Shown: positions 20,727-31,346 of the stretch, one piece after another
Layout: every line of letters starts with the position of its first letter
Numbering within the stretch: position 1 is the stretch's first letter
Origin: Clostridia bacterium
Lineage (GTDB): Bacteria > Bacillota > Clostridia > Christensenellales > Aristaeellaceae
Direction of reading: 5' to 3'
NCBI GenBank assembly: GCA_017552535.1
Contig: JAFZPV010000007.1
Span: 1 to 33,521, forward strand
DNA: 33,521 nucleotides
Translations under genes and position numbers: made by a program
The notes under the pieces: generated by a model
The model's input: only the letters and a program-made list of their open reading frames with translations
Database searches by the model: none
Told to the model about the DNA's origin: nothing

Positions 20727-22424
20727 TTATGTCAGGTAAGGGTGCGATATGATCCGGGTTTGGTGGTATTTCTCTTGCGCGAATCTGCTTTTCACGGTGA
20801 AGTAGGCAAGCTTGGGCCTTCTGTATTCGTCTACCACGCCTTTGTTGTTCATCGTGCGGGGCCTTCGCATAGCCCATTCCTCAGAGACCTTTACGTCGGC
20901 GAACTGCCAGATGTATACGCCGCTGACCCTTTCGTTGCCAAGAACAGCCTGCAGCTGCTCGTCCAGTATGTCGGCCTGGCGTTCTTCGCTCCACTTGGCG
21001 CGGCGGAAGGCGTCGTGATATCCGGCGATCGCGCCTGCGCCGATCTCGGTGATCAGCACCGGCTTGCCCTTGGCGCCGTTTTCTTCCATCCATGAAAGCA
21101 GACGGGCCAGAAAGTCCGCGACCGGCTCGTTTATGTACCAGGCCGGATAGATATTGAAGGACACCACATCCACCAGGTCCAGGCAGACATCGTTGAAGAT
21201 GCGGCAGGAAGCAAAGCTTACGGGGCGGGTGGGATCGAGGGCACGCAGCTGATCAAGGTTCTTCTTGTACAGTGCATGGCCAAACTCGGTTTCGCTTTCG
21301 CATTCATTCAGCACGCCCCATATGTAAATGCAGGGATGATTTACGTGCTGACGGATCATTTCTTCGTTGCAGTCAGAGATCTGCTTGGCGAACAGTTCCT
21401 TTCTGAGGATCTCGCCGGGCAGCGCGCGGGCGTGGTGCTCCTCCCACACCAGTATGCCGAGTTCGTCGCAGAGATCCAGAAATTTGGGATCATTCGGGTA
21501 GTGGCAGGTCCTCACGGCGTTTGCGCCCATATCGAGCATCAGCTGCAGGTCGCACACCATGGCGCCGGCATCCATGCTCATGCCCAGTTGGCCGTGATCT
21601 TCGTGCCGGTTGAAGCCCAGGATCTTTACGCGTTTATGATTCAGCAGGATGCTTTCCCCGTTTATCTCCACTGTCCTGAAGCCCACTCTGTCCGCAAGGT
21701 CATCGATGATCTCCCCATCCTTGCGCAGCGTGCCGGTCAGCGGATACAGCTGTCCGCTGTGTACATCCCAGGCAAGCACTTTCAGTTTTTCAAGAGTGAT
21801 ATCGATCTGCTTTGTATCGCCTTTTTTCATGCTCCCAAGCTCTGCAGTTTTGCCCGCACCGGCAAGTTCCACGCAGTAGCGTAGAGAACCGGTGTCATTC
21901 AGGGCGCGGATATCGGCTCTGATATGGGCATCAAATGTACCGTCTTCGTTTTCGGCTGCATAGAAGGTCTGGGAAGAGATCATGGCCCCCTTCAGATAGT
22001 GCAGTTCCGCGGAGCGGTTGATCCCGCCGTATGTGAAATAGTCGTTGGGGATGTGCAGCGTTGAATTCTCGCTGAAGGAATTGTCCACCTCTATGCGCAG
22101 TTCATGCCGGCTGGCTGACACCTGGTCGATGATAACGTCAAAGCCGGTGAAGGCGTTGTAGTGGCTGCCAACGGGTTTGCCGTCCCAGAAGACCGCGGCA
22201 GTGTGGCTGACGCCGCCGAACCTGAGCATAATGCACGAATCGCGGTCGATCATGACGCTGCGTGCATATACCGCCTTTCCCTCGTAAGATGCAAGCTCCG
22301 GAACAGTCTCCCATACGCCGGGCACGATCATGGGAAAGGTCCTTCCGTCGGGGAGCGCGATAGTCCACAAGCCGTCGAGGCTCTCCGTACGGCGGGCGTA
22401 ATGCTCCTGGAATAATCTGATCAT
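20727..22424 (-). CDS. uidA: Glycoside hydrolase family 2, beta-glucuronidase-like
   Basis: A 565-residue GH2 enzyme without a signal peptide, so probably cytosolic. Domain order is a sugar-binding jelly roll (about 10-160), an Ig-like domain, and a TIM barrel from about 265. GFNRHEDHG and AVRTCHYP are GH2 signatures. The acid/base is Glu374 (LNE), the nucleophile Glu460 (ITEIG). WQFADVK is followed by Arg523 and Asn526-x-Lys528, matching the N-x-K motif by which beta-glucuronidases hold the uronate carboxylate. It lies next to uronate genes. The Shine-Dalgarno is weak (GCAGGT). Beta-galacturonidase or beta-galactosidase activity remains possible. Base use looks less GC-biased than in neighbouring housekeeping genes. 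Confidence 0.8.
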   Translation of the reverse strand: MIRLFQEHYARRTESLDGLWTIALPDGRTFPMIVPGVWETVPELASYEGKAVYARSVMIDRDSCIMLRFGGVSHTAAVFWDGKPVGSHYNAFTGFDVIIDQVSASRHELRIEVDNSFSENSTLHIPNDYFTYGGINRSAELHYLKGAMISSQTFYAAENEDGTFDAHIRADIRALNDTGSLRYCVELAGAGKTAELGSMKKGDTKQIDITLEKLKVLAWDVHSGQLYPLTGTLRKDGEIIDDLADRVGFRTVEINGESILLNHKRVKILGFNRHEDHGQLGMSMDAGAMVCDLQLMLDMGANAVRTCHYPNDPKFLDLCDELGILVWEEHHARALPGEILRKELFAKQISDCNEEMIRQHVNHPCIYIWGVLNECESETEFGHALYKKNLDQLRALDPTRPVSFASCRIFNDVCLDLVDVVSFNIYPAWYINEPVADFLARLLSWMEENGAKGKPVLITEIGAGAIAGYHDAFRRAKWSEERQADILDEQLQAVLGNERVSGVYIWQFADVKVSEEWAMRRPRTMNNKGVVDEYRRPKLAYFTVKSRFAQEKYHQTRIISHPYLT

Positions 22425-22520
22425 GGCGTTTTACCTGCTTTCATAGCAATCGTTGTCGGGCTTAAATCGGTGGGAAACTCAAATGAATGAACCGTTTTTC
22501 CCACGGACAAGGCGAATGGG

Positions 22521-23789
22521 TCAGAATGTATCCGCAAACCTGCGGTTCTCCAGCCAGGCTATCATGTTGAGCACCAGGTAGTTCCAGTTTTCAAAGCCGT
22601 GGGTCACGATGGGATCGCAAGTATCCGGATCGTAATACTCGTGCAGGCTGCCGTTCTGCTCCAGGTCGCGCCCGAACAGCAAAACGGTCTTTTTCGCCGT
22701 TTCCGCCGCGTCCTGATTGAAACCGTATTTGAGCAAGCCTGAAAAGACCATGTAATTGCTTATGCCCCACACGGGCCCGCGCCAGTTCGACGGATTGTTC
22801 GATGCGCGCAGATCGTACATCTTCTCCAGGCGCGACAGCGTGCGCACGCCGCCGCGGCAGGAAAATGTGCTTGGGTCGCGGAGCCTGGATACCATCCTCT
22901 CAGCCTGCGCAGATGTGCAGATGCCGGCCCACAGGGGCATAAAACTCGTCCAGCAGTCGATGCGCATGATCATGCAGGGATAGTCCCGCGGCGCCCCGCT
23001 GTGCAGCCAGGCGCCTTCGACCACCGGCAGAAGCCCAAAGTCCACGCTGTAGAACGTGCCGTCGCGCTCGTCCCAGCAGTACGCCTGCACCGCGTTTCTC
23101 AGATCGGTTGCCCGGTTCCGCCAGCTGTTGGCTTTCTTCATGTCGCCCAGCATCTCAAATATATAGCCCATGGCCAGCAGTTCCCTGTACATCAGGCTGT
23201 TTAGGTATATGGAGCCGCAGCTGTTTGGCGGACGGAAGAACACCGCGGGATCATTGTCCACGCCCACCGCGAAGTCGTCCTTCCAGCGCAAAAGCCCGGT
23301 CTGAGGCTCGCGGAATTCGTTCATGTAACGCCGGATGAACGTCTCCAGTTTCGGTATGGAGGACCTGATCCACTCAGCATCCGGGTCCCGCTGCAGTATG
23401 GAGGCGACCTGCTGCGCCAGCACAGGCTTGTGCATGTTGGTCTGGCGCATGTCTTTAAGGCCGGGTATGTTCAGGTCTTTTTCCGGCGTCACGCATATCG
23501 GGATGTATCCGTCATCCGCGCACAGGTCCATGAAATTCAGCACGCTCCCGCGTTCCCAGTCCATGTACCGGCCTTTTTGGCCGCTGTCCGCTTCGAGTTG
23601 GGCAAAGGTGATACCTGTGAGCCATGAATCCCAGTCCCAGAGGTTGTCGGAATAGTACGGGCTGTCCTCGGACGTGGGCGTGATATAGGGATAGCGCAGC
23701 CTCCCGGCGGGACTGTGCGTCATGCTGCTGCAGGATGCGTGAATGTGCTGCCTGAGAAGGTCCTGGTAGCGTGCGAGTCTGTCTTCCAT
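22521..23789 (-). CDS. GH63/MGH1-like (alpha/alpha)6 glycoside hydrolase
   Basis: A 422-residue protein resembling the clan of GH63/GH37/MGH1-like hydrolases built as an (alpha/alpha)6 barrel. Visible signatures are [10 protein letters not shown] (47-56), [17 protein letters not shown] (165-181; its Asp residues are candidates for the general acid), [11 protein letters not shown] (337-347), and [10 protein letters not shown] (379-388) with Glu384 as likely base. The linkage cut is unknown; relatives act on alpha-glucosides, mannosylglycerate or glucosylglycerate. No signal peptide. The start at 23789 has GGAGGG just upstream; longer in-frame versions run through the promoter. It precedes the GH2 gene by 96 bases on one strand. 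Confidence 0.7.
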
Positions 23790-23810
23790 GCTGCCCTCCG
23801 AATACATAGA

Positions 23811-23823
23811 TGTCATCTTGACA
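23811..23823. promoter_or_regulatory. Candidate operator TGTCA-N3-TGACA
   Basis: A perfect 5-bp inverted repeat sits at about +1 to +13 of the minus-strand glycosidase promoter, a good place for a repressor. No regulator gene is adjacent, so the binding protein is unknown. Confidence 0.35.
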
Positions 23824-23829
23824 GGCTTA

Positions 23830-23858
23830 AGTATACCGCCAAACGCGAAAACATTCAA
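23830..23858 (-). promoter_or_regulatory. Promoter of the glycosidase pair
   Basis: On the minus strand TTGAAT (23853-23858), 17-base spacer, TATACT (23830-23835), giving a leader of roughly 34 bases before the GH63-like gene. Confidence 0.6.
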
Positions 23859-23979
23859 GAGCCGGCGCTGCAAAGCGGCGCGTTTATGTGACCGTATCTG
23901 TCTGCACTGTGCCGGCTGCAAAGCCCGGCACAGGGTGTGTTATGTTCCGGCCTTTGTCGGTTACGTTTGCGTCCTCCGC

Positions 23980-24008
23980 TTGCAATCCGGGGGCGGGCGT
24001 GGTACAAT
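23980..24008 (+). promoter_or_regulatory. Promoter of kdgK-kduI
   Basis: TTGCAA (23980-23985), 17-base spacer, TACAAT (24003-24008), about 30 bases before the kinase start. It is divergent from the glycosidase promoter 120 bases away. Confidence 0.7.
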
Positions 24009-24045
24009 ACGGGCAGGATACGAATTGAGAAAGGACAGAAGCAAG

Positions 24046-25083
24046 ATGGGAAATCGTTTTGTGAGCTTCGGCGAGATCATGCTCAGGCTCAAAAACCTGG
24101 GTTCCGAGAGGCTGTTTCAGAGCCCCATGCTGGAGGCCACCTTCGGCGGCGGCGAGGCGAACGTAGCCGTAAGCCTGGCCAATTACGGCCTGGACGCCTC
24201 CTTTGTTACGGTGCTTCCCGACAACGACGTCACGGCGGCCTGCCTGCGGGAGCTGCGCTCCTTCGGGGTGGACACGAAAAACGTGGTGTTCCGGCCCGGG
24301 CGCATGGGCGTATATTATCTGGAGTCCGGCGCGGTGCAGCGCCCCAGCAAGGTGATATACGACCGGGCGTACTCCGCCATCTCCCTGGCGGGGAAAGGGG
24401 ACATCGACTGGGATAAGTGCTTTGAAGGCGCCAAGTGGTTTCACATCACCGGCATCACGCCCGCCATCAGCGACGGCGCGCGCGCCCTGGCGGAGGAATC
24501 CGTCGGGGCGGCCAAGCGCCTGGGCCTCACGGTGAGCTGCGACCTCAACTACCGCAAGAACCTGTGGAAATACGGCAAGACCTCCGGCGAAGTGATGCCC
24601 GGCATCGTGAAATACACCGACGTGGTGATCGCCAACGAAGAGGATGTACAGAAGGCGCTGGGCATTTCCGCCGAATCTGCCCAGGGCGCGGAGGAAGGCA
24701 AGCTGGACACCGCGCTGTACGAAAACCTCTGCAGGCAGGTGATGAGCGCCTACCCCAACGTGAAAAAGGTGGCCATCACCCTGCGCGAAAGCAAAAGCGC
24801 CAACCACAACGACTGGAGCGCCTGCCTGTTTAACGGCAGCGAGTTCATTCTGTCCCGCAAGTACGCGATCACCCACATCGTGGACCGCGTGGGCGGCGGA
24901 GACAGCTTTTCCGGCGGCCTGATCTACGGCCTCAATACCTACGACAGCGACAAAGACGCGCTGGAGTTCGCCGTGGCGGCCAGCTGCCTCAAGCACACCA
25001 TTCCCGGGGACTACAACCGCGTTACCGCCAAAGAGGTGGAAGCCCTCATGCGCGGCAGCGGCTCCGGCCGGGTACAGAGATAA
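24046..25083 (+). CDS. kdgK: PfkB-family sugar kinase, probable 2-keto-3-deoxygluconate kinase
   Basis: A 345-residue ribokinase/PfkB-family kinase. It begins [11 protein letters not shown] and carries [15 protein letters not shown] (substrate and dimer region) and the anion-hole motif [12 protein letters not shown] near residues 282-293 with the catalytic Asp. Adjacency to kduI points to 2-keto-3-deoxygluconate, giving KDPG for aldolase cleavage; the family alone does not prove this. AAGGA lies ten bases before the start, and the promoter at 23980 excludes the 86-codon in-frame extension. KduI follows after 17 bases. No KDPG aldolase is in the window. Confidence 0.8.
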
Positions 25084-25100
25084 TCGCAGGAGGAACGCAT

Positions 25101-25934
25101 ATGAAACTGGACATCCGTTATCCCAGCCATCCGGACGACGCAAAGCACTACACCACAGACGAGCTGCGCCGCCAGTATCTGATCGAAAAGGTCTTCGAGG
25201 CGGACGAGGCGCTTCTGACCTACAGCCACTTTGACCGCATCATCGCGGGCGGCATCATGCCTGTCCATAAGGCTGTGGCGCTGACCGGCGGCAAGGAGCT
25301 GGCCAGCGAATACTTTCTGGAGCGCCGGGAGATCGGCATCATCAACGTGGGCGGCGCGGGCCGCGTGACCGCGGACGGCGACGTGTACGAGCTGGCCCCG
25401 AGGGACGGCCTGTACGTGGGCATGGGCGTGAAGAAGCTGGAGTTCGAAAGCCTCGATCCCGCCTGCCCCGCCAAGTTCTGGATCAATTCCTGCCCCGCGC
25501 ACAAGACCTGGCCCAACAAAAAGATCAACATCAAGGATGCCGCCAAGCGCCCCCTGGGCACCGTGGAGCAGTGCAACAAGCGCGTGATCAACCAGTATAT
25601 CCATCCCGCCGTGCTCAAGACCTGCCAGCTGTGCATGGGCCTTACCGAGCTGGAACCCGGCTCCAACTGGAACTCCATGCCCTGTCACACCCACGAGCGC
25701 CGCATGGAAGTGTACTTCTACTTTAACCTGGACGACAAGATCATGTTCCACATGATGGGCCAGCCGGAGGAGACCCGCCACATCGTGATGCACGACGAGC
25801 AGGCGGTTATCTCTCCCTCCTGGAGCATCCATTGCGGCGTGGGCACCGGCAATTACGCGTTCATCTGGGGCATGTGCGGCGAAAACCAGGAATTCGACGA
25901 CATGGACAACATCGCTCCCAAGGATCTTCGGTAA
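25101..25934 (+). CDS. kduI: 5-dehydro-4-deoxy-D-glucuronate isomerase
   Basis: A 277-residue KduI, a cupin isomerase converting 4-deoxy-L-threo-5-hexosulose uronate to 3-deoxy-D-glycero-2,5-hexodiulosonate in breakdown of pectin or glycosaminoglycans. The zinc ligands are in place: His196 and His198 (CHTHE), Glu203 and His244 (SIHCG), matching the known KduI site. Length equals the usual 278. [17 protein letters not shown] and [18 protein letters not shown] are diagnostic. AGGAGG precedes the start. KduD, the next enzyme, is not in the window. Confidence 0.96.
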
Positions 25935-25940
25935 ACGAAG

Positions 25941-25984
25941 CATACAAACGGGAGGAGCCGCTGAGGGCTCCTCCCGTTTGTATG
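25941..25984. terminator. Bidirectional terminator between kduI and the histidine kinase
   Basis: A perfect 19-bp stem (25941-25959 with 25966-25984) with a 6-base loop lies between convergent genes. The base of the stem (CATACAAAC/GTTTGTATG) supplies T-rich sequence in both directions. Confidence 0.85.
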
Positions 25985-25989
25985 TGCTT

Positions 25990-27234
25990 TCAGCTCTTTA
26001 TGCCTTTCGGCAGATGGCAGATGAACGCCAGGCGGCTGCCCTGCATCTCGGCGCTGATACGGCCGGAATGCTTTTCCACGATGGCTGCGGCGATGGCGAG
26101 GCCGATGCCGAAACCGCTCTTTTTGTCCTTGCTGCGGGAGGGATCGGCCCGGTAGAAGCGGTCGAACAGCTGGGCGCACTGCTGGGACGTAAGCGGCTCT
26201 GAAACGGGATTTGACAGGGTAAAGCGCACCCAGCGGCCTTCGGCCCGGGCCTTAAGTTCGATGGCGCCATCGCCGGAAGCGTACTTGAGGGCGTTGTCCA
26301 GCAGGGTGGAGGCCAGGCGCTGCAGGCTGGCGTAATCGCCTTTCACGTACAGGCCGTCCGCGATGTCCAGCTTCATGTCCCGCCCGGTAAACTCCGCCAT
26401 GCCCATAAAGGGCTCCGCAGCCTCCCGCAAAAGGCTGTCCAGGCGGAGGCTCTCCATGCTGAGGGGGGCGTTTTCTTCCTCCAGGCGGCTCAGGTACACC
26501 AATTCGTCCACCAGGCGGCGCATGATGCCCGTCTGCTTGAGCGTGCCCTTTACCCAGGTGTTGTCCGGAACGTCCATGCCCAGAAGCTCCATGTTGGCGG
26601 CGATCACCGTGAGGGGCGTTTTGAGCTCGTGGGAAGCGTTGGTGATGAACTGCTTCTGCTTTTCCATGTTGCGTATGGTGGGCATCACCGCCCGGCGGCT
26701 GGCCAGCGCCAGGATGGCAAACGCCAGCAGGATGCCGCCCAGGCACGCCAGGAAGGAGATCGATACCAGCCTGCGCACGGCGCTGAGGCGGGTCTCGCAG
26801 TTCAGGAACGTGATCACCTCGGACCCGCTCGGGGTCCGGCGCGCCGTATACAGGTAATCCCCGATGAAGGCGCCCGTCTTTCCGTTCTGCCGGGCTTTTT
26901 CAGCCAGAAGGCGCGCGCTGTCCTCGTCGGTCTCCACGGCGTTTGCAAAGTTGATATTGCGTATCTCTCCCGAGGAGGCGCTGTAATACACGGTGAACCA
27001 GTTGGATTCGCTCAGTGTGTTCCTTTCGTGCTTGCTGCGTGCCAGCGGCCGCATATCCGCCATGGCCATCGGCCCGCGCAGGTCGTTTTCGGAGATGAAA
27101 TCCAGGGTATCCTTCAGCTCCGCACGCACGCTAAGCCAATTGGTCAGGTTCACGATGCCCACCACCAGCACCATGGCCACGGTCAGGGCGACCAGGGATA
27201 TCAGCACGAACCGCCGTTTCAGTTTTCTGATCAT
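25990..27234 (-). CDS. Sensor histidine kinase
   Basis: A 414-residue membrane histidine kinase. Helices at about 9-30 and 155-177 flank a 120-residue extracellular sensor region with no recognised domain. No HAMP domain is evident. The H-box NASHELKTPLTVI has His202, the N-box is LLDNALKYA, and the G-box region reads FDRFYRADPSRS then GFGIGLAIA. Its start overlaps the response regulator stop by four bases, so the two are a coupled pair. The signal is unknown; the cluster upstream suggests an envelope cue (inference). Confidence 0.93.
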   Translation of the reverse strand: MIRKLKRRFVLISLVALTVAMVLVVGIVNLTNWLSVRAELKDTLDFISENDLRGPMAMADMRPLARSKHERNTLSESNWFTVYYSASSGEIRNINFANAVETDEDSARLLAEKARQNGKTGAFIGDYLYTARRTPSGSEVITFLNCETRLSAVRRLVSISFLACLGGILLAFAILALASRRAVMPTIRNMEKQKQFITNASHELKTPLTVIAANMELLGMDVPDNTWVKGTLKQTGIMRRLVDELVYLSRLEEENAPLSMESLRLDSLLREAAEPFMGMAEFTGRDMKLDIADGLYVKGDYASLQRLASTLLDNALKYASGDGAIELKARAEGRWVRFTLSNPVSEPLTSQQCAQLFDRFYRADPSRSKDKKSGFGIGLAIAAAIVEKHSGRISAEMQGSRLAFICHLPKGIKS

Positions 27235-27905
27235 GCCTTATTCTCCAGCGAATAGCCGCTTCCTCGGTGCACGTGGATCTCCGCGCCGGCGTCCAGCTCG
27301 CTCAAGCGCTTGCGCAGCTGGGAGATGTTCACCCACACCACGTTGATCTCCGCCTCGGAATCCCAGCCCCACACGCGTTCCATGAGCTGGTTCACGGAGA
27401 ACAGCACGTGGGGGTTCTCCATGAACAGCTCCATGAGCTGGTAGGTCTTGCCCGTGAGGCGCAGCGTTTTGCCGTTGCAGCTCAGCTCGTTTTTGCCCTT
27501 GTCCAGCGACAGATCGCTGAAGGAAACGATATCCGGCACGTAGCTTGCGCGCCTGCGCAGCATCGCCCGCACCCGGGCCATGAGTTCCTGCGCCTCAAAG
27601 GGCTTGGGCAGATAGTCGTCCGCGCCGGCGTCCAGCCCCTGCACCTTGTCTTCCACAGAATCCCGGGCGGTGAGCAGCAGGCAGGGGATGGCCACGCCCT
27701 TTTCCCGCAGCACGGACAGGGCCTCCACGCCGCTTTTTTCGGGCATCATCCAGTCCAGGATCATGCCGTCGTACCCGCCGGCCAGGGCGTAGTCCACGGC
27801 GCTCTGCCCGTCGTATACCGCGTCCACGATATAGCCGGAGCGCTCCAAAAGCGCCTTCACAGCCCGGGAAAGGTCCCTGTCGTCCTCCGCAAACAAAAGC
27901 TTCAT
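27231..27905 (-). CDS. OmpR-family response regulator
   Basis: A 224-residue two-domain regulator. The receiver (1-115) has acidic FAEDD, phospho-acceptor Asp51 in LDWMMP, Thr/Ser-containing LLLTARDS, and the conserved Lys in LPKPF. A winged-helix DNA-binding domain follows (LSLDKGKNEL to GSGYSLENKA). The start at 27905 is set by the promoter immediately upstream; a 30-codon in-frame extension would cover the promoter. It is the first gene of the kinase pair. Confidence 0.94.
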   Translation of the reverse strand: MKLLFAEDDRDLSRAVKALLERSGYIVDAVYDGQSAVDYALAGGYDGMILDWMMPEKSGVEALSVLREKGVAIPCLLLTARDSVEDKVQGLDAGADDYLPKPFEAQELMARVRAMLRRRASYVPDIVSFSDLSLDKGKNELSCNGKTLRLTGKTYQLMELFMENPHVLFSVNQLMERVWGWDSEAEINVVWVNISQLRKRLSELDAGAEIHVHRGSGYSLENKA

Positions 27906-27945
27906 GGCGCACCGCCTTTTTTCAGGATTTGGGTCTGATAACTGT

Positions 27946-27974
27946 ATTGTAGCCGCAGCCGGCGCTTTTTGCAA
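27946..27974 (-). promoter_or_regulatory. Promoter of the two-component system
   Basis: On the minus strand TTGCAA (27969-27974), 17-base spacer, TACAAT (27946-27951), about 40 bases before the response regulator start. It allows expression independent of the upstream surface-protein genes. Confidence 0.7.
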
Positions 27975-28006
27975 GAAAAACATGAAAGCGCGCACGGTCA
28001 GGATGA

Positions 28007-28037
28007 CGGGCTGCCGCCAGAACGAGGCGGCAGCCCG
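28007..28037 (-). terminator. GC-rich hairpin downstream of the DUF4353 gene
   Basis: A perfect 12-bp stem (28007-28018 with 28026-28037) and 7-base loop. No T-tract follows directly on the minus strand, so it may be a weak terminator or an mRNA-stabilising end. Confidence 0.45.
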
Positions 28038-28071
28038 GGGAATATGTGAACGCCCGCGCGCGGCGCGATCC

Positions 28072-29784
28072 TCAGCGGCCCCTGCCGCCGCGTCCGCCCT
28101 GGCTGCCGAAGCCGCCGGGATTGCCCCAGCCGCCCTGGCCGCCGAAACCGCCGGGATTGCCCCAGCCGCCCGCGGAGGAGGCGTAATTGTCCGTCATCTG
28201 GCCGGAGTACACGGTCTGTCCCGCCGCGGTCACGCTCATCTGGTCGCCGGCGCTGAGCGAAGCGCAGGACACGGTGAGGGTATTAAAGGTGCCCTTTGGC
28301 GTAAAGGAAGCCAGCACGTTTCCGTCTGCGTCGCTGACCGCCACCTCGCTGCCCGCCGCCTGGGCGGAGGGGAGGGTGATGTACATCATGGCCTGGCCGG
28401 AGAGGGTGCCGCTGTCGAACATGCTGCCCTGGGTGCTTGCCACGATGAGGGTGCCGCCGGTGATGGAGCCGGTGCCGGTAAAGTCGATGGTGCCTTCGCC
28501 GCCGTTGGTCACAGCCCATACGCCGGTCACGCCGCCGGTGATCAGGATGCTGCCGTTGCTGTCCAGGCCGTCGCCGCCGGCGCTTACGTACAGCTCTCCG
28601 CCGCTGATCGCAAGCGTTCCGTCGCCCGCGCCAAAGCCGCCGCGCTGTCCCCAGCCGCCGGCAAAGCCGGAGCCGTCCGATCCGCCCGAGGCGTTCACGG
28701 CGTCGTCTGAAGATACCACCGTGATGTATCCGCCGCTGACGGAAACATCCTTGCCCTCGATGCCTTCGTAGCTCTGGGCGATGTTGACGGTGCCGCCGCT
28801 GACCAGGGCCAGCTCGTCGGCGTGGATGCCGTCGTCCCCGCTCAGAATGCTGAGGGTGCCGCCGGACACGGTGACGTTCACGGCGTGCAGGCCGTCGTCG
28901 GCGCAGTCGAGGGTGAGCGTACCGCCCTGTACGGTCAGGTCTGTGGCGGCCTTGATGCCCTTTTGCGATACGCCCGAATCCGAGGAAGCGCCTGCATAGC
29001 TGTTCCGGCCGTTCCAGCCGCCCCGGCCCATCTGGCTGTTGGCGGAGGGGCGCACCTCGCCCGCGCCGCTGCCGGTAGTAATGGAGAGGCTGCCGCCCGC
29101 GATAAGCACCCAGCCCTTGCCGTCCTTGTCGTCTCGGGTGGCCGCGATACCGTCGCCCCCAGCGATTACGGTAATCGAGCCGTCCAGCACCAGCACGGAG
29201 TTGCGCCCGCGTATACCGTCGCCGCCTGCCTGGACCTGGATGAACCCGTTTGCAATAATGAGATCCGCCTTGCTCTGGATGCCGTGCTTTTCGCCGCTCA
29301 CGGCGTACAGCGCGCCTTTGCCGTTCAAGCTCAGGTCGTCTTCGGCGTAGAGAGCCGCGCCGACGGTGTCGTCGCCGTCCGTCACGGGGGAGCCGGCAGT
29401 CAGGGTGTTCACGCTGCCTTCCGCCAGGGTGACGATCAGCTTGTCCGCCTGCTTTTCGTATACGGCGGGGCCGGAAGCAGAAGTCACGGTCACGCCGTTC
29501 AGGATCAGGCGCACCTTGGCGTCCTTCGGGGCTTCCACCACGATCTGCCCGTCCAGGGAGCCGCTAAGCAGGTAGTCGCCCGCCTGGCTGACGGTGAGCG
29601 CTCCGTCGGTGACATCCGACAGGTCGATATGCACGGCTTCACTGTCGTCCCAGGTATCCGTGACATCTTTGGCCTTATACAGGGTGCTTACGTCCGTTTC
29701 TTCGCCCGCGAAGGCGGGAAGGCCCAGGGCTGCCAGCAGTACCGCCAGCGCGGTGAGCAGACAAATGATCTTATTGGTCTTCAT
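28072..29784 (-). CDS. Secreted DUF4353 carbohydrate-binding beta-helix protein (Cthe_2159-like)
   Basis: A 570-residue secreted protein of the DUF4353 family. Clostridium thermocellum Cthe_2159, from this family, is a calcium-binding beta-helix that binds acidic polysaccharide and cellulose. Residues 1-27 are a signal peptide (ALGLPAFA). The body is built of short repeats with GGDGI, DDGLHA, GDDGIHA, SYEGIEG and GGDGLDS turns; their acidic residues suit calcium binding. The tail is a Gly-rich tandem repeat, GGWGNPGGFGGQ, ending RGGRGR, with no sortase motif or anchor. Start 29784 overlaps the upstream stop (ATGA) and has AAAGGAG nine bases before it. Confidence 0.85.
   Translation of the reverse strand: MKTNKIICLLTALAVLLAALGLPAFAGEETDVSTLYKAKDVTDTWDDSEAVHIDLSDVTDGALTVSQAGDYLLSGSLDGQIVVEAPKDAKVRLILNGVTVTSASGPAVYEKQADKLIVTLAEGSVNTLTAGSPVTDGDDTVGAALYAEDDLSLNGKGALYAVSGEKHGIQSKADLIIANGFIQVQAGGDGIRGRNSVLVLDGSITVIAGGDGIAATRDDKDGKGWVLIAGGSLSITTGSGAGEVRPSANSQMGRGGWNGRNSYAGASSDSGVSQKGIKAATDLTVQGGTLTLDCADDGLHAVNVTVSGGTLSILSGDDGIHADELALVSGGTVNIAQSYEGIEGKDVSVSGGYITVVSSDDAVNASGGSDGSGFAGGWGQRGGFGAGDGTLAISGGELYVSAGGDGLDSNGSILITGGVTGVWAVTNGGEGTIDFTGTGSITGGTLIVASTQGSMFDSGTLSGQAMMYITLPSAQAAGSEVAVSDADGNVLASFTPKGTFNTLTVSCASLSAGDQMSVTAAGQTVYSGQMTDNYASSAGGWGNPGGFGGQGGWGNPGGFGSQGGRGGRGR
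28105..28171 (-). repeat. 36-bp direct repeat coding the Gly-rich tail
   Basis: About two copies, at 28105-28140 and from 28141, nearly identical, encode the 12-residue unit GGWGNPGGFG plus GQ or SQ. The near-identity suggests recent duplication or slippage. Confidence 0.75.
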
Positions 29785-29987
29785 TTTCGGTTTCTCCTTT
29801 GGCGCAGTTTCCAAGCGGTTATGCTTTGTCCGGCGGCGCTTATGCACAGAAGCGCCAGCATGCCGCGGGAATAGGGATTGTCCACGAAGTTCATCATGGG
29901 GTTGAACAGATCCAGGATCAGAAATACGATCAGGACCATCGAAAGAATCACTGAGAGATGGCTGAATACGGAGTTCATTTTACGCAT
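29781..29987 (-). CDS. Small two-helix membrane protein
   Basis: A 68-residue protein of unknown family with two hydrophobic helices (about 10-28 and 43-61), a short loop between them (NPMMNFVDNPYSR), and a basic C-terminus RQRRNRK. It overlaps the phosphodiester glycosidase gene by eight bases and the DUF4353 gene by four, so it is translationally locked between them. GGAGG lies nine bases before its start. It may anchor or help export the flanking proteins; this is inference from position. Confidence 0.75.
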   Translation of the reverse strand: MRKMNSVFSHLSVILSMVLIVFLILDLFNPMMNFVDNPYSRGMLALLCISAAGQSITAWKLRQRRNRK

Positions 29988-31185
29988 CCTTTTTCACCTC
30001 CGCGATCAGAAGTGCGTCGCTGGATTCGCGGCCGCCGCCGGAGGGGGCGTTGATCACTTCGCCCTGCCACACCATGATGGAGGAGTTTCCGCCGTCCAGG
30101 TTGTACGCCGCCCGGCAGCCCAGGCTCTCGAACAGTTTGGAAAGCTCTGTCAGCGTGAGGCCGTCCGATTCGCCCCGTCCGTCCACCACCACCATGCAGT
30201 AGTGGCCGGGCTCGTAATAGCCGATGGCGGTGCGGGGATTGGCTCGGGCGATCATGCCGGTGGTTGAAAAGCTACTGATGGCCTGCCCGTTCTGGTCCAG
30301 CAGCGCGGGGCCGAAGGTCCAGGCCTGCCAGGCGCCGTCCTCGATGGCCTCATCCACCGAGAAGGAAGACCCGCTCATCACCCGCATCGTGCCGTCGTAA
30401 TACAGCACGCACACGTCGTTGGTTGTAGGGTTCGCCCGGTAGATCACGCCGTTTCGGATCACCACGCCCTCGTTCGTGTTGCCGTAGTAATCGCCGTTTA
30501 CGGCCAGCAGCGCGCCGTTCACGGAAGCCATGTCCTCGATGGAGTCGCGGTAGCCGCTGCCGTAGGTATCCTGGGCCAGTGCGGTCTGAAAGCAGGTGAT
30601 GTCCCTTACATAGATGTCCGCCAGGTAATAGGTGACGCGCCCGCCGTCATAGCTTAGTTCGTTTACAGTAACGGATACATTCGGACTGGTGTAGCCCGTG
30701 TCGGTGACCACGGTCTCTTCGGTAAACGCCCAGGCGAATTTTTCATCAAGCGGCGTGATGTCATTCTGGGTGTTTTCGATTTCACCCGCCGTCTCTCCGG
30801 CCAGGCCGCTTCCGCCCTTGGAGTTCATGCCGCCCCTGGAGGAAGACGAGGGGCTGCGGCGGCTTCGGGAGGAAGAGGACTGTCCCGTGCCGGTGCCCGT
30901 CCGGGACCTGGAGGCGGTCTGCGCGTCTGCCCACACGGTTTTTGGGGCGGTGGCGCCGGAATCGGAATCGGAATCGGTGTTTTCCGGCTGGGCCGCGGGC
31001 TGCTCCTCTTTGGCGTTTGCGCCGGAAGAGGAGACGTAGGGGTTTTCAATCACGATGCCCGAGGCCGCTTTCTCGCGGGGCAGCACGTGGTGAAAGAAAG
31101 CAAAAACAAATATCACCAGGGCGGCGCACAGCGCGTCGGCGGCCAGTTTTTTCAGCACGGGATGGCTTTGTGTGTTCCCTGCCAT
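29980..31185 (-). CDS. Membrane-anchored phosphodiester glycosidase (NAGPA/DUF2233 domain)
   Basis: A 401-residue protein with an N-terminal membrane helix (about 14-35). A low-complexity Ser/Arg/Gly/Glu linker to about residue 130 follows, then a NAGPA domain facing outside. Family marks are LLAVNGDYYG, GYYEPGHYCMVVVDGRG, AAYNLDGGNSSIM and the C-terminal SDALLI. NAGPA enzymes remove N-acetylglucosamine or related sugars from phosphodiesters; bacterial members are thought to act on cell-wall or exopolymer phosphodiesters. The start at 31185 has AAAGGAG seven bases upstream, which beats an in-frame ATG 15 codons earlier. Confidence 0.87.
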   Translation of the reverse strand: MAGNTQSHPVLKKLAADALCAALVIFVFAFFHHVLPREKAASGIVIENPYVSSSGANAKEEQPAAQPENTDSDSDSGATAPKTVWADAQTASRSRTGTGTGQSSSSRSRRSPSSSSRGGMNSKGGSGLAGETAGEIENTQNDITPLDEKFAWAFTEETVVTDTGYTSPNVSVTVNELSYDGGRVTYYLADIYVRDITCFQTALAQDTYGSGYRDSIEDMASVNGALLAVNGDYYGNTNEGVVIRNGVIYRANPTTNDVCVLYYDGTMRVMSGSSFSVDEAIEDGAWQAWTFGPALLDQNGQAISSFSTTGMIARANPRTAIGYYEPGHYCMVVVDGRGESDGLTLTELSKLFESLGCRAAYNLDGGNSSIMVWQGEVINAPSGGGRESSDALLIAEVKKDA

Positions 31186-31201: not shown

Positions 31202-31224
31202 GTCAGCCGCTTTTTCCGGCTGAC
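31202..31224 (-). other. 5'-leader hairpin of the phosphodiester glycosidase mRNA
   Basis: An 8-bp perfect stem (31202-31209 with 31217-31224) and 7-base loop lies at the predicted 5' end of the transcript and just before the Shine-Dalgarno. It may protect the mRNA or affect initiation. Confidence 0.4.
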
Positions 31225-31230
31225 AGGCAC

Positions 31231-31236
31231 AGTATA
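31231..31236 (-). promoter_or_regulatory. -10 element for the phosphodiester glycosidase operon
   Basis: TATACT on the minus strand lies about 46 bases before the start codon, next to AT-rich sequence. The -35 element is poor (a TTGATT only 14 bases upstream), so activator dependence is possible. Confidence 0.4.
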
Positions 31237-31346
31237 GCGGCGGAAGCTAAAATCAAATTAAAGCCGGATGTGCGAATATATTAAGCGTGGGTAAAGTTTC
31301 ACGCCTGTCCGCCTGCCGGGCGCACATGAATTTTACGCTGGACGTA

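Follow-up and report, generated by a model that had tools for sequence, protein, structure and literature searches.

A conserved pair of a predicted NAGPA-type phosphodiester glycosidase and a 68-residue membrane protein, in a candidate split surface regulon of a Clostridia bacterium

The human uncovering enzyme is the type member of the NAGPA phosphodiester glycosidases, and direct repeats of 11 bp that cover the −35 position are characteristic of promoters served by OmpR/PhoB activators. In published reports, fusions of the NAGPA domain are described (PMC11488536), Cthe_2159 of Clostridium thermocellum is presented as a binder of cellulose and polygalacturonic acid (PMC6712302), CotH, a polyphosphate polymerase (VTC) and DUF4956 are found to flank Gram-positive pel operons, with their role left open (PMC7112168), and a Clostridium perfringens locus is noted to hold VTC and CotH genes (PMC2879425). 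Here we analysed a five-gene cassette in which these themes meet, on contig C11 of a gut or rumen bacterium of the family Aristaeellaceae; the entire contig, 33,521 bp, is the window referred to below, and the assembly comprises 2.39 Mb in 62 contigs and is 77% complete. All five genes lie on the minus strand, in the following order:

29980..31185, minus strand: predicted NAGPA-domain phosphodiester glycosidase (NAGPA), ATG at 31185, stop at 29980, 401 residues, Pfam PF09992
29781..29987, minus strand: 68-residue small membrane protein (SMP) with two predicted helices, recognized from alignments, hydrophobic segments and its 8-bp overlap with NAGPA
28072..29784, minus strand: Cthe_2159/DUF4353 beta-helix protein (Cthe_2159), ATG at 29784, stop at 28072, 570 residues, Pfam PF14262
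27231..27905, minus strand: OmpR/PhoB-type response regulator (RR), ATG at 27905, stop at 27231, 224 residues, Pfam PF00072 and PF00486
25990..27234, minus strand: membrane sensor histidine kinase (HK), 414 residues, Pfam PF00512 and PF02518

SMP and Cthe_2159 share 4 bases (ATGA), as do RR and HK, and 166 bp separate the stop of Cthe_2159 from the start of RR. Coordinates and Pfam matches thus agree with a first-pass annotation of this DNA, which had described overlaps of 8 and 4 bases and the two regulatory genes next on the same strand.

NAGPA and SMP are a conserved pair. In a draw of 300 genomes of the same family, NAGPA stood directly 5′ of SMP at all 58 of the strongest SMP sites outside the own genome (flanks fetched down to E 1.2e-11), so that the gene coupling noted earlier proved to be conserved. 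Eleven weaker SMP matches (27-36% identity) were examined as well and every one adjoined NAGPA, eight in the order NAGPA-SMP, two in the order SMP-NAGPA and one as a natural fusion (L220), in which SMP comes first in a single frame of 500 residues with the NAGPA domain (1.3e-30) in frame. Starting from the enzyme, all 39 NAGPA relatives located in genome contigs had SMP next downstream; the two genes overlapped by exactly 8 bp in 33 of these loci and by 4 bp in three, abutted in one and lay 1 bp apart in two. At the level of the class, where SMP is rare (10 of 391 genomes in five families, the own genome included), 12 of 14 SMP sites, two of them in the own genome, were accompanied by NAGPA, and the other two were a contig end and a marginal match. 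Furthermore, 47 of 60 genomes that were SMP-negative by single-sequence search had a NAGPA match at E≤1e-20; two of these, with the nearest NAGPAs (50% and 44%), were found by profile search to hold SMP, which in one of them is doubled and follows a tandem pair of NAGPAs, and the other 28 NAGPA loci among the matches listed for SMP-negative genomes had no SMP in their short flanks.

In a tree of 115 NAGPA domains (79 with SMP and 36 without; two L097 fragments and L104 excluded), the SMP label required 3 changes against a shuffled mean of 30.7, in a topology whose bootstrap is unsettled and some of whose placements are unsure. A sequence mark of pairing was found at the outer end of the enzyme's membrane anchor:

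31078..31095, minus strand: outer end of the NAGPA anchor, FHHVLP, with the motif [HD]HVx[PQ]

Of the SMP-paired NAGPAs, 80 of 81 have this motif (the sequence of the remaining one is truncated where its contig ends), as against 0 of 36 unpaired enzymes, a contrast to which common descent contributes and from which one L097 fragment was excluded; most of the unpaired enzymes have apparent signal peptides or other anchors. Taken together, the conserved adjacency, the natural fusion and the anchor motif suggest that SMP is quite probably a membrane subunit of NAGPA. No pair of NAGPA with a small membrane protein appeared in the titles and abstract openings of the literature searched, a body of text in which subscription papers are mostly not included.

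For the window SMP itself, no Pfam or NCBIfam model reached its cut-off. The protein had no Pfam match at E≤0.01, and relaxing the threshold to E≤1 brought up just DUF4181 (14.4 bits against a cut-off of 25.4) and, well short of their cut-offs, two NCBIfam models; among 22 members searched at E≤1, each family listed matched one to three members, with a best Pfam E of 3.1e-4 (MerC, one member). SLATT_5, DUF4181 and MerC were rejected as names, each being found in one or two members and lying under its cut-off for the window protein. SMP matches at E≤1e-3 were nevertheless obtained in 99 of the 300 family genomes, the own genome counted, and the median ratio of nonsynonymous to synonymous substitution rates (dN/dS) was 0.23 for 397 non-independent pairs among relatives (60-99% identity, dS <2, retained from 466 computed all-against-all). 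By these measures of conservation the 68-residue frame is a genuine, conserved gene, as the first-pass annotation had supposed; that annotation had regarded a lack of homologues elsewhere, together with a lack of conserved neighbourhood, as grounds for dismissal, and both homologues and a conserved neighbourhood were found. The hydrophobic segments span residues ~5-35 and 42-59, and the core reads LD-x-FNPMMNF-x-x-N. In 40 aligned proteins (the window and 39 relatives) H10, F22, L25, D26, N29, P30, M32, N33, F34 and L44 are invariant, and an alignment of 22 rows that takes in distant members leaves H10, N29 and F34 invariant. Two SMP-type units apparently occur in one open reading frame in L219 (by profile) and in L076 and L088 (by eye).

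The partner is assigned with a Pfam score of 119.9 bits (PF09992, 1.7e-34) against a curated cut-off of 25. It consists of an N-terminal membrane anchor, a low-complexity linker and an enzyme domain (residues 223-394), the last predicted to lie outside, and solved chains of the NAGPA type, 3ohg and 6pki among them, match it. The stretches NGDYY, RTxxG (RTAIG here), VDGR (VVDGR here) and NLDGG align with 3ohg, and 6pki carries the variants NGGYF, RTAVG, VDGQ and NLDGG; in the window and 32 relatives, NGDYY, RTAIG, VVDGR and NLDGG are invariant save for I321. Residues in these stretches are presumably catalytic, and the predicted activity is that of a sugar-1-phosphodiester hydrolase. Unlike known NAGPA phosphodiester glycosidases, the window enzyme has an anchor of its own that ends in FHHVLP, a low-complexity linker with KGGS and a small membrane partner. 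KGGS (residues 123-126) is invariant in the window and the same 32 relatives within an otherwise low-complexity linker.

The third gene product, Cthe_2159, scored 259.4 bits against PF14262 (4.3e-77; curated cut-off 25.8) and has a signal peptide-like N-terminus and a Gly-rich, cationic tail. It is of the same beta-helix family as the Cthe_2159 structures 4peu and 4phb, which we take to come from Clostridium thermocellum, with a match of 1e-25 over residues 16-241; the window protein is longer and has the tail in addition. A short Gly-rich tail of this kind ends Cthe_2159 in the window (28072-28170) and in L036-L072, in most cases carrying basic residues close to its terminus (RGR, RKGR, RRRR or RGW), and is possibly an anionic-polymer or sorting tail. 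A second Cthe_2159 gene was not found on the window contig.

Upstream of NAGPA, a second conserved feature was identified:

31231..31263, minus strand: promoter element, an 11-bp direct repeat CTTTAATTT-GA-TTTTAGCTT followed after 7 nt by the −10 box TATACT, read directly and kept in relatives

The consensus of the repeat is TTTWARSTT-NN-TTTWARSTT, followed after 5-8 nt by a −10-like TANNNT. With half-sites spaced by 11 bp and an almost constant distance to the −10 box, the element resembles the direct-repeat operators of PhoB and OmpR, which likewise overlap the −35 position; the half-site TTTWARSTT sets the window repeat apart, and the element is predicted to serve the NAGPA operon as the site of an OmpR-family activator. 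With a version of the motif that used G where the later consensus has R, NAGPA upstream regions scored at least 14/18 in 36 of 57 family loci (1.1% of shuffles), in 0 of 24 distant SMP-paired NAGPAs and in 1 of 35 of the remaining NAGPA group; another phasing of the repeat was discarded after fitting just 6 of the 59 upstream regions of the family (window included). When the −10 box was required, 46 sites were found in 843,948 bp of family flanks against 7 in the reversed-sequence control. Of these, 43 stood at most 350 bp ahead of NAGPA (34) or Cthe_2159 (9), and one of the three others (L104) apparently also precedes NAGPA, where the match is truncated. Repeats of a different, TTCACA-like kind were seen by eye before NAGPA in L111, L117, L130, L132 and L136, which lack the TTTWARSTT repeat; L111 and L117 have a different RR-HK upstream (RR 43-44% identity), perhaps a regulator swap.

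Positions away from NAGPA provide independent support for the element, as the consensus was derived from NAGPA upstream regions and the enrichment there is partly circular. The repeat occurs before Cthe_2159-first operons (L131, L143, L145, L146, L149 and L152) and, at 5 of the 11 loci that have RR-HK apart from the pair (L202, L204, L206, L211 and L213), ahead of RR. Among 40 VTC loci picked by hand (L226-L265), in which VTC comes first in 19 and DUF4956 in 21, it was found before VTC in 6 of the VTC-first loci and before DUF4956 in none of the DUF4956-first loci. In the own genome, sites precede VTC on contigs C34 (15/18, 6-nt spacer) and C60 (18/18). A whole-genome scan allowing ≤3 mismatches with a 7-nt spacer gave two matches, on C11 and C60, against 3 for a control pattern; the C34 site, which lies outside the 7-nt-spacer pattern, was found by scanning a fetched stretch. 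Judged by this common element and its position, the NAGPA, C34 and C60 operons are likely to share one surface regulon.

The gene neighbourhood gives a second view of this connection. Near the pair in the 58 family loci, which include loci limited by contig ends, Cthe_2159 was found in 35, VTC in 20, DUF4956 in 20, RR (≥60% identity) and HK (≥44%) in 15 each and a PMT_2-type glycosyltransferase-like gene (as in L040) in 11; 19 loci have no gene of this list. Where the flanks reach at least 4.5 kb upstream and at least 6 kb downstream (34 sites), one or more such neighbours are present at 23. L106 and L108 have the fullest order, NAGPA-SMP-Cthe_2159-VTC-DUF4956-RR-HK-PMT. The window contig gave no match to VTC, CotH or DUF4956, as the first-pass annotation had observed; in the own genome VTC and DUF4956 stand together three times, as VTC-DUF4956-Cthe_2159 on C34, VTC-DUF4956-CotH on C60 and CotH-VTC-DUF4956 on C47. 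The window cassette therefore does not share an operon with these genes, which lie on C34 (there without CotH), C47 and C60; it is linked to the VTC-DUF4956-CotH module and is no member of it. The same families make up the accessory group described beside pel operons (PMC7112168), and unlike that group as described there, the module here is tied through the promoter element to NAGPA-SMP-Cthe_2159 on another contig. The association of DUF4353 with CotH, VTC and DUF4956 that the first-pass annotation put forward proved partly right: VTC and DUF4956 stand by the pair at the frequencies given above, CotH does so at no more than 3 of the 58 loci (L120, L125 and L149), and the own genome has VTC-DUF4956 on three other contigs, two of them with CotH. 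The earlier suggestion of a reduced or distinct version is likewise best modified: because the promoter element is common to C11, C34 and C60, the cassette is better read as a split version, apparently a portion of a surface regulon that is spread over several contigs, than as a reduced one.

The regulator encoded beside the cassette has the domain make-up of an OmpR/PhoB two-component system, with a receiver (Response_reg, 2.1e-26) and a winged-helix effector (Trans_reg_C, 1.1e-19) in RR, and HisKA (1.3e-11) and HATPase_c (1.1e-15) in HK; none of the 25 best NCBIfam families for either protein attained its cut-off. An RR ortholog at E≤1e-60 was found in 28 of the 58 genomes, beside the cassette in 15 and elsewhere in 13, where one is the same cassette cut at a contig end, one stands behind VTC-DUF4956 and one near a Cthe_2159 gene; the neighbours of RR-HK loci away from the pair were searched for a clue to the signal, and none is clearly conserved. 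The repeat is present in 24 of 27 genomes with the ortholog and 17 of 30 without it (Fisher p=0.0086, relatedness uncorrected; L140, whose contig starts inside NAGPA, excluded and the weak L157 site scored absent). These counts make the RR encoded here the best candidate binder of the repeat and not the sole one. Another regulator may bind it, because the site persists in those 17 genomes; the repeat could then belong to some other regulator of the OmpR family that controls a broader set of genes (for example one for phosphate or envelope stress), with the adjacent RR-HK as a bystander. Related RRs (43-50% identity) that stand divergent to VTC operons in L247, L257 and L258, with the site between, fit such a regulator, whereas the association with the ortholog and the presence of the site before RR itself in the five loci named above speak for the window RR; we regard the different regulator as possible and the less probable of the two.

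Several of the results weigh against a single regulon built around the pair. Besides the circular derivation of the consensus, the persistence of the site without the RR ortholog and the scarcity of CotH, the promoter of RR-HK in the window is without the direct repeat, the third VTC locus (C47) has no site with a −10 box, and 13 of the 19 VTC-first loci of relatives are without the site. VTC is present in all 58 SMP-positive and in 59 of 60 SMP-negative genomes; being near-universal in the family, its presence says nothing, and co-occurrence at the genome level was set aside as uninformative. Furthermore, 16 NAGPA-SMP loci outside the main clade, some cut by contig ends, showed no Cthe_2159, VTC or DUF4956 nearby, and CotH once. 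The pair thus works without the module, and it looks like the core, with the module a later association within one clade.

Two other explanations were considered. SMP could modulate the neighbouring HK, reporting the state of NAGPA or of a polymer, and be no structural partner of NAGPA: NAGPA-SMP-RR-HK occurs without an intervening Cthe_2159 in L104 (same genus) and L153, and RR (≥60% identity) and HK (≥44%) each stand beside the pair in 15 of the 58 loci. The same count means that the two-component system is not a fixed member of the cassette. With 43 of 58 loci without such an RR beside the pair (contig ends included), with 30 of 58 genomes lacking the RR ortholog, and with the fusion and the anchor motif indicating NAGPA as the partner, we consider a role as kinase modulator quite improbable. 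Somewhat less remote, and still unlikely, is that the genes are merely co-transcribed, NAGPA and SMP being translationally coupled and acting apart, and Cthe_2159 being a plant-polymer adhesin of a fibre-degrading bacterium. The polymer binding described for C. thermocellum Cthe_2159 (PMC6712302) would suit an adhesin, as would the KduI/IolB gene that adjoins HK and, no more than ~5 kb away, a gene for a PfkB sugar kinase and two for glycoside hydrolases, and gene content beside the pair is variable, with 18 arrangements in 58 loci. Mere co-transcription is countered by a pairing that survives changes of order, fusion and tandem duplication and by a promoter element common to VTC and CotH operons. 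On balance, we lean towards a two-protein NAGPA-SMP membrane enzyme and a secreted Cthe_2159 beta-helix, encoded together by one of at least three operons of a scattered surface regulon.

In such an arrangement, SMP would form a two-helix membrane hairpin with both ends inside and the conserved D-x-x-N-x-x-M-x-F turn at the outer face. This turn may pack on the FHHVLP end of the NAGPA anchor and thereby hold or stabilize the enzyme domain outside, where NAGPA would cleave phosphodiester-linked sugar off a glycopolymer of the surface. With calcium, Cthe_2159 would bind acidic polymer; synthesis and export of a phosphate polymer would fall to VTC-DUF4956 (C34 and C60), and phosphorylation of a surface target to CotH (C60); an OmpR-family RR, most likely that encoded in the window, would activate the C11, C34 and C60 operons through the 11-bp repeat. 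The polymer chemistry, from synthesis by VTC-DUF4956 and phosphorylation by CotH to binding by Cthe_2159 and trimming by NAGPA, is suggested by family names and is tentative.

Further signals around the cassette bear on its transcription:

31202..31224, minus strand: 8-bp stem-loop GTCAGCCG/CGGCTGAC in the 5′ leader of NAGPA, immediately 5′ of the ribosome-binding site
28007..28037, minus strand: strong hairpin between Cthe_2159 and RR, 12-bp stem and 7-nt loop, without a T run
27946..27974, minus strand: predicted sigma-70-like promoter TTGCAA-17-TACAAT for RR-HK, without a direct repeat
25941..25984, minus strand: terminator-like hairpin 3′ of HK, 19 pairs with a T-rich tail

The hairpin and promoter that part Cthe_2159 from RR, and the terminator-like hairpin after HK, indicate that the cassette is probably two transcription units, with read-through possible; the hairpin at 28007..28037 is a possible attenuator. 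Sigma-70-like promoter sites numbered 5 in the region against 1.3 in shuffles, and terminator-like sites are weak as a class because 7 were found against 5.8 in shuffles. The leader hairpin of NAGPA was rejected as a conserved regulatory RNA, as hairpins occur in only some relatives and without common sequence. The single Rfam match at the gathering threshold was a lysine riboswitch (RF00168, 31378-31542, plus strand, 69.6 bits), on the opposite strand to the cassette and divergent from it, preceding genes that by eye resemble dapA and dapB. Adjoining the HK gene, positions 20727-25934 hold KduI/IolB and a PfkB kinase (plus strand) and GH2 and MGH1-like glycoside hydrolases (minus strand), possibly a block for uronate or pectin catabolism. 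A mobile origin of the cassette was considered, and the plasmid collection gave no match.

At its widest, the picture would be of a new two-protein membrane enzyme, a two-helix micro-protein docked on the outer end of its anchor, recruited in one gut or rumen family into a two-component-controlled phosphopolymer regulon (NAGPA-SMP-Cthe_2159, VTC-DUF4956-Cthe_2159 and VTC-DUF4956-CotH) through which an exported polyphosphate or phosphoglycan is made, phosphorylated, bound and trimmed; we hold this to be possible and, as a whole, rather doubtful. For a family of small membrane proteins without a Pfam or NCBIfam model above cut-off, a partner can be named and a contact site predicted; the bacterial VTC-DUF4956-CotH module gains a testable regulon with one DNA motif, one candidate regulator and three operons. 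If this is right, the joint function of these genes becomes directly testable.

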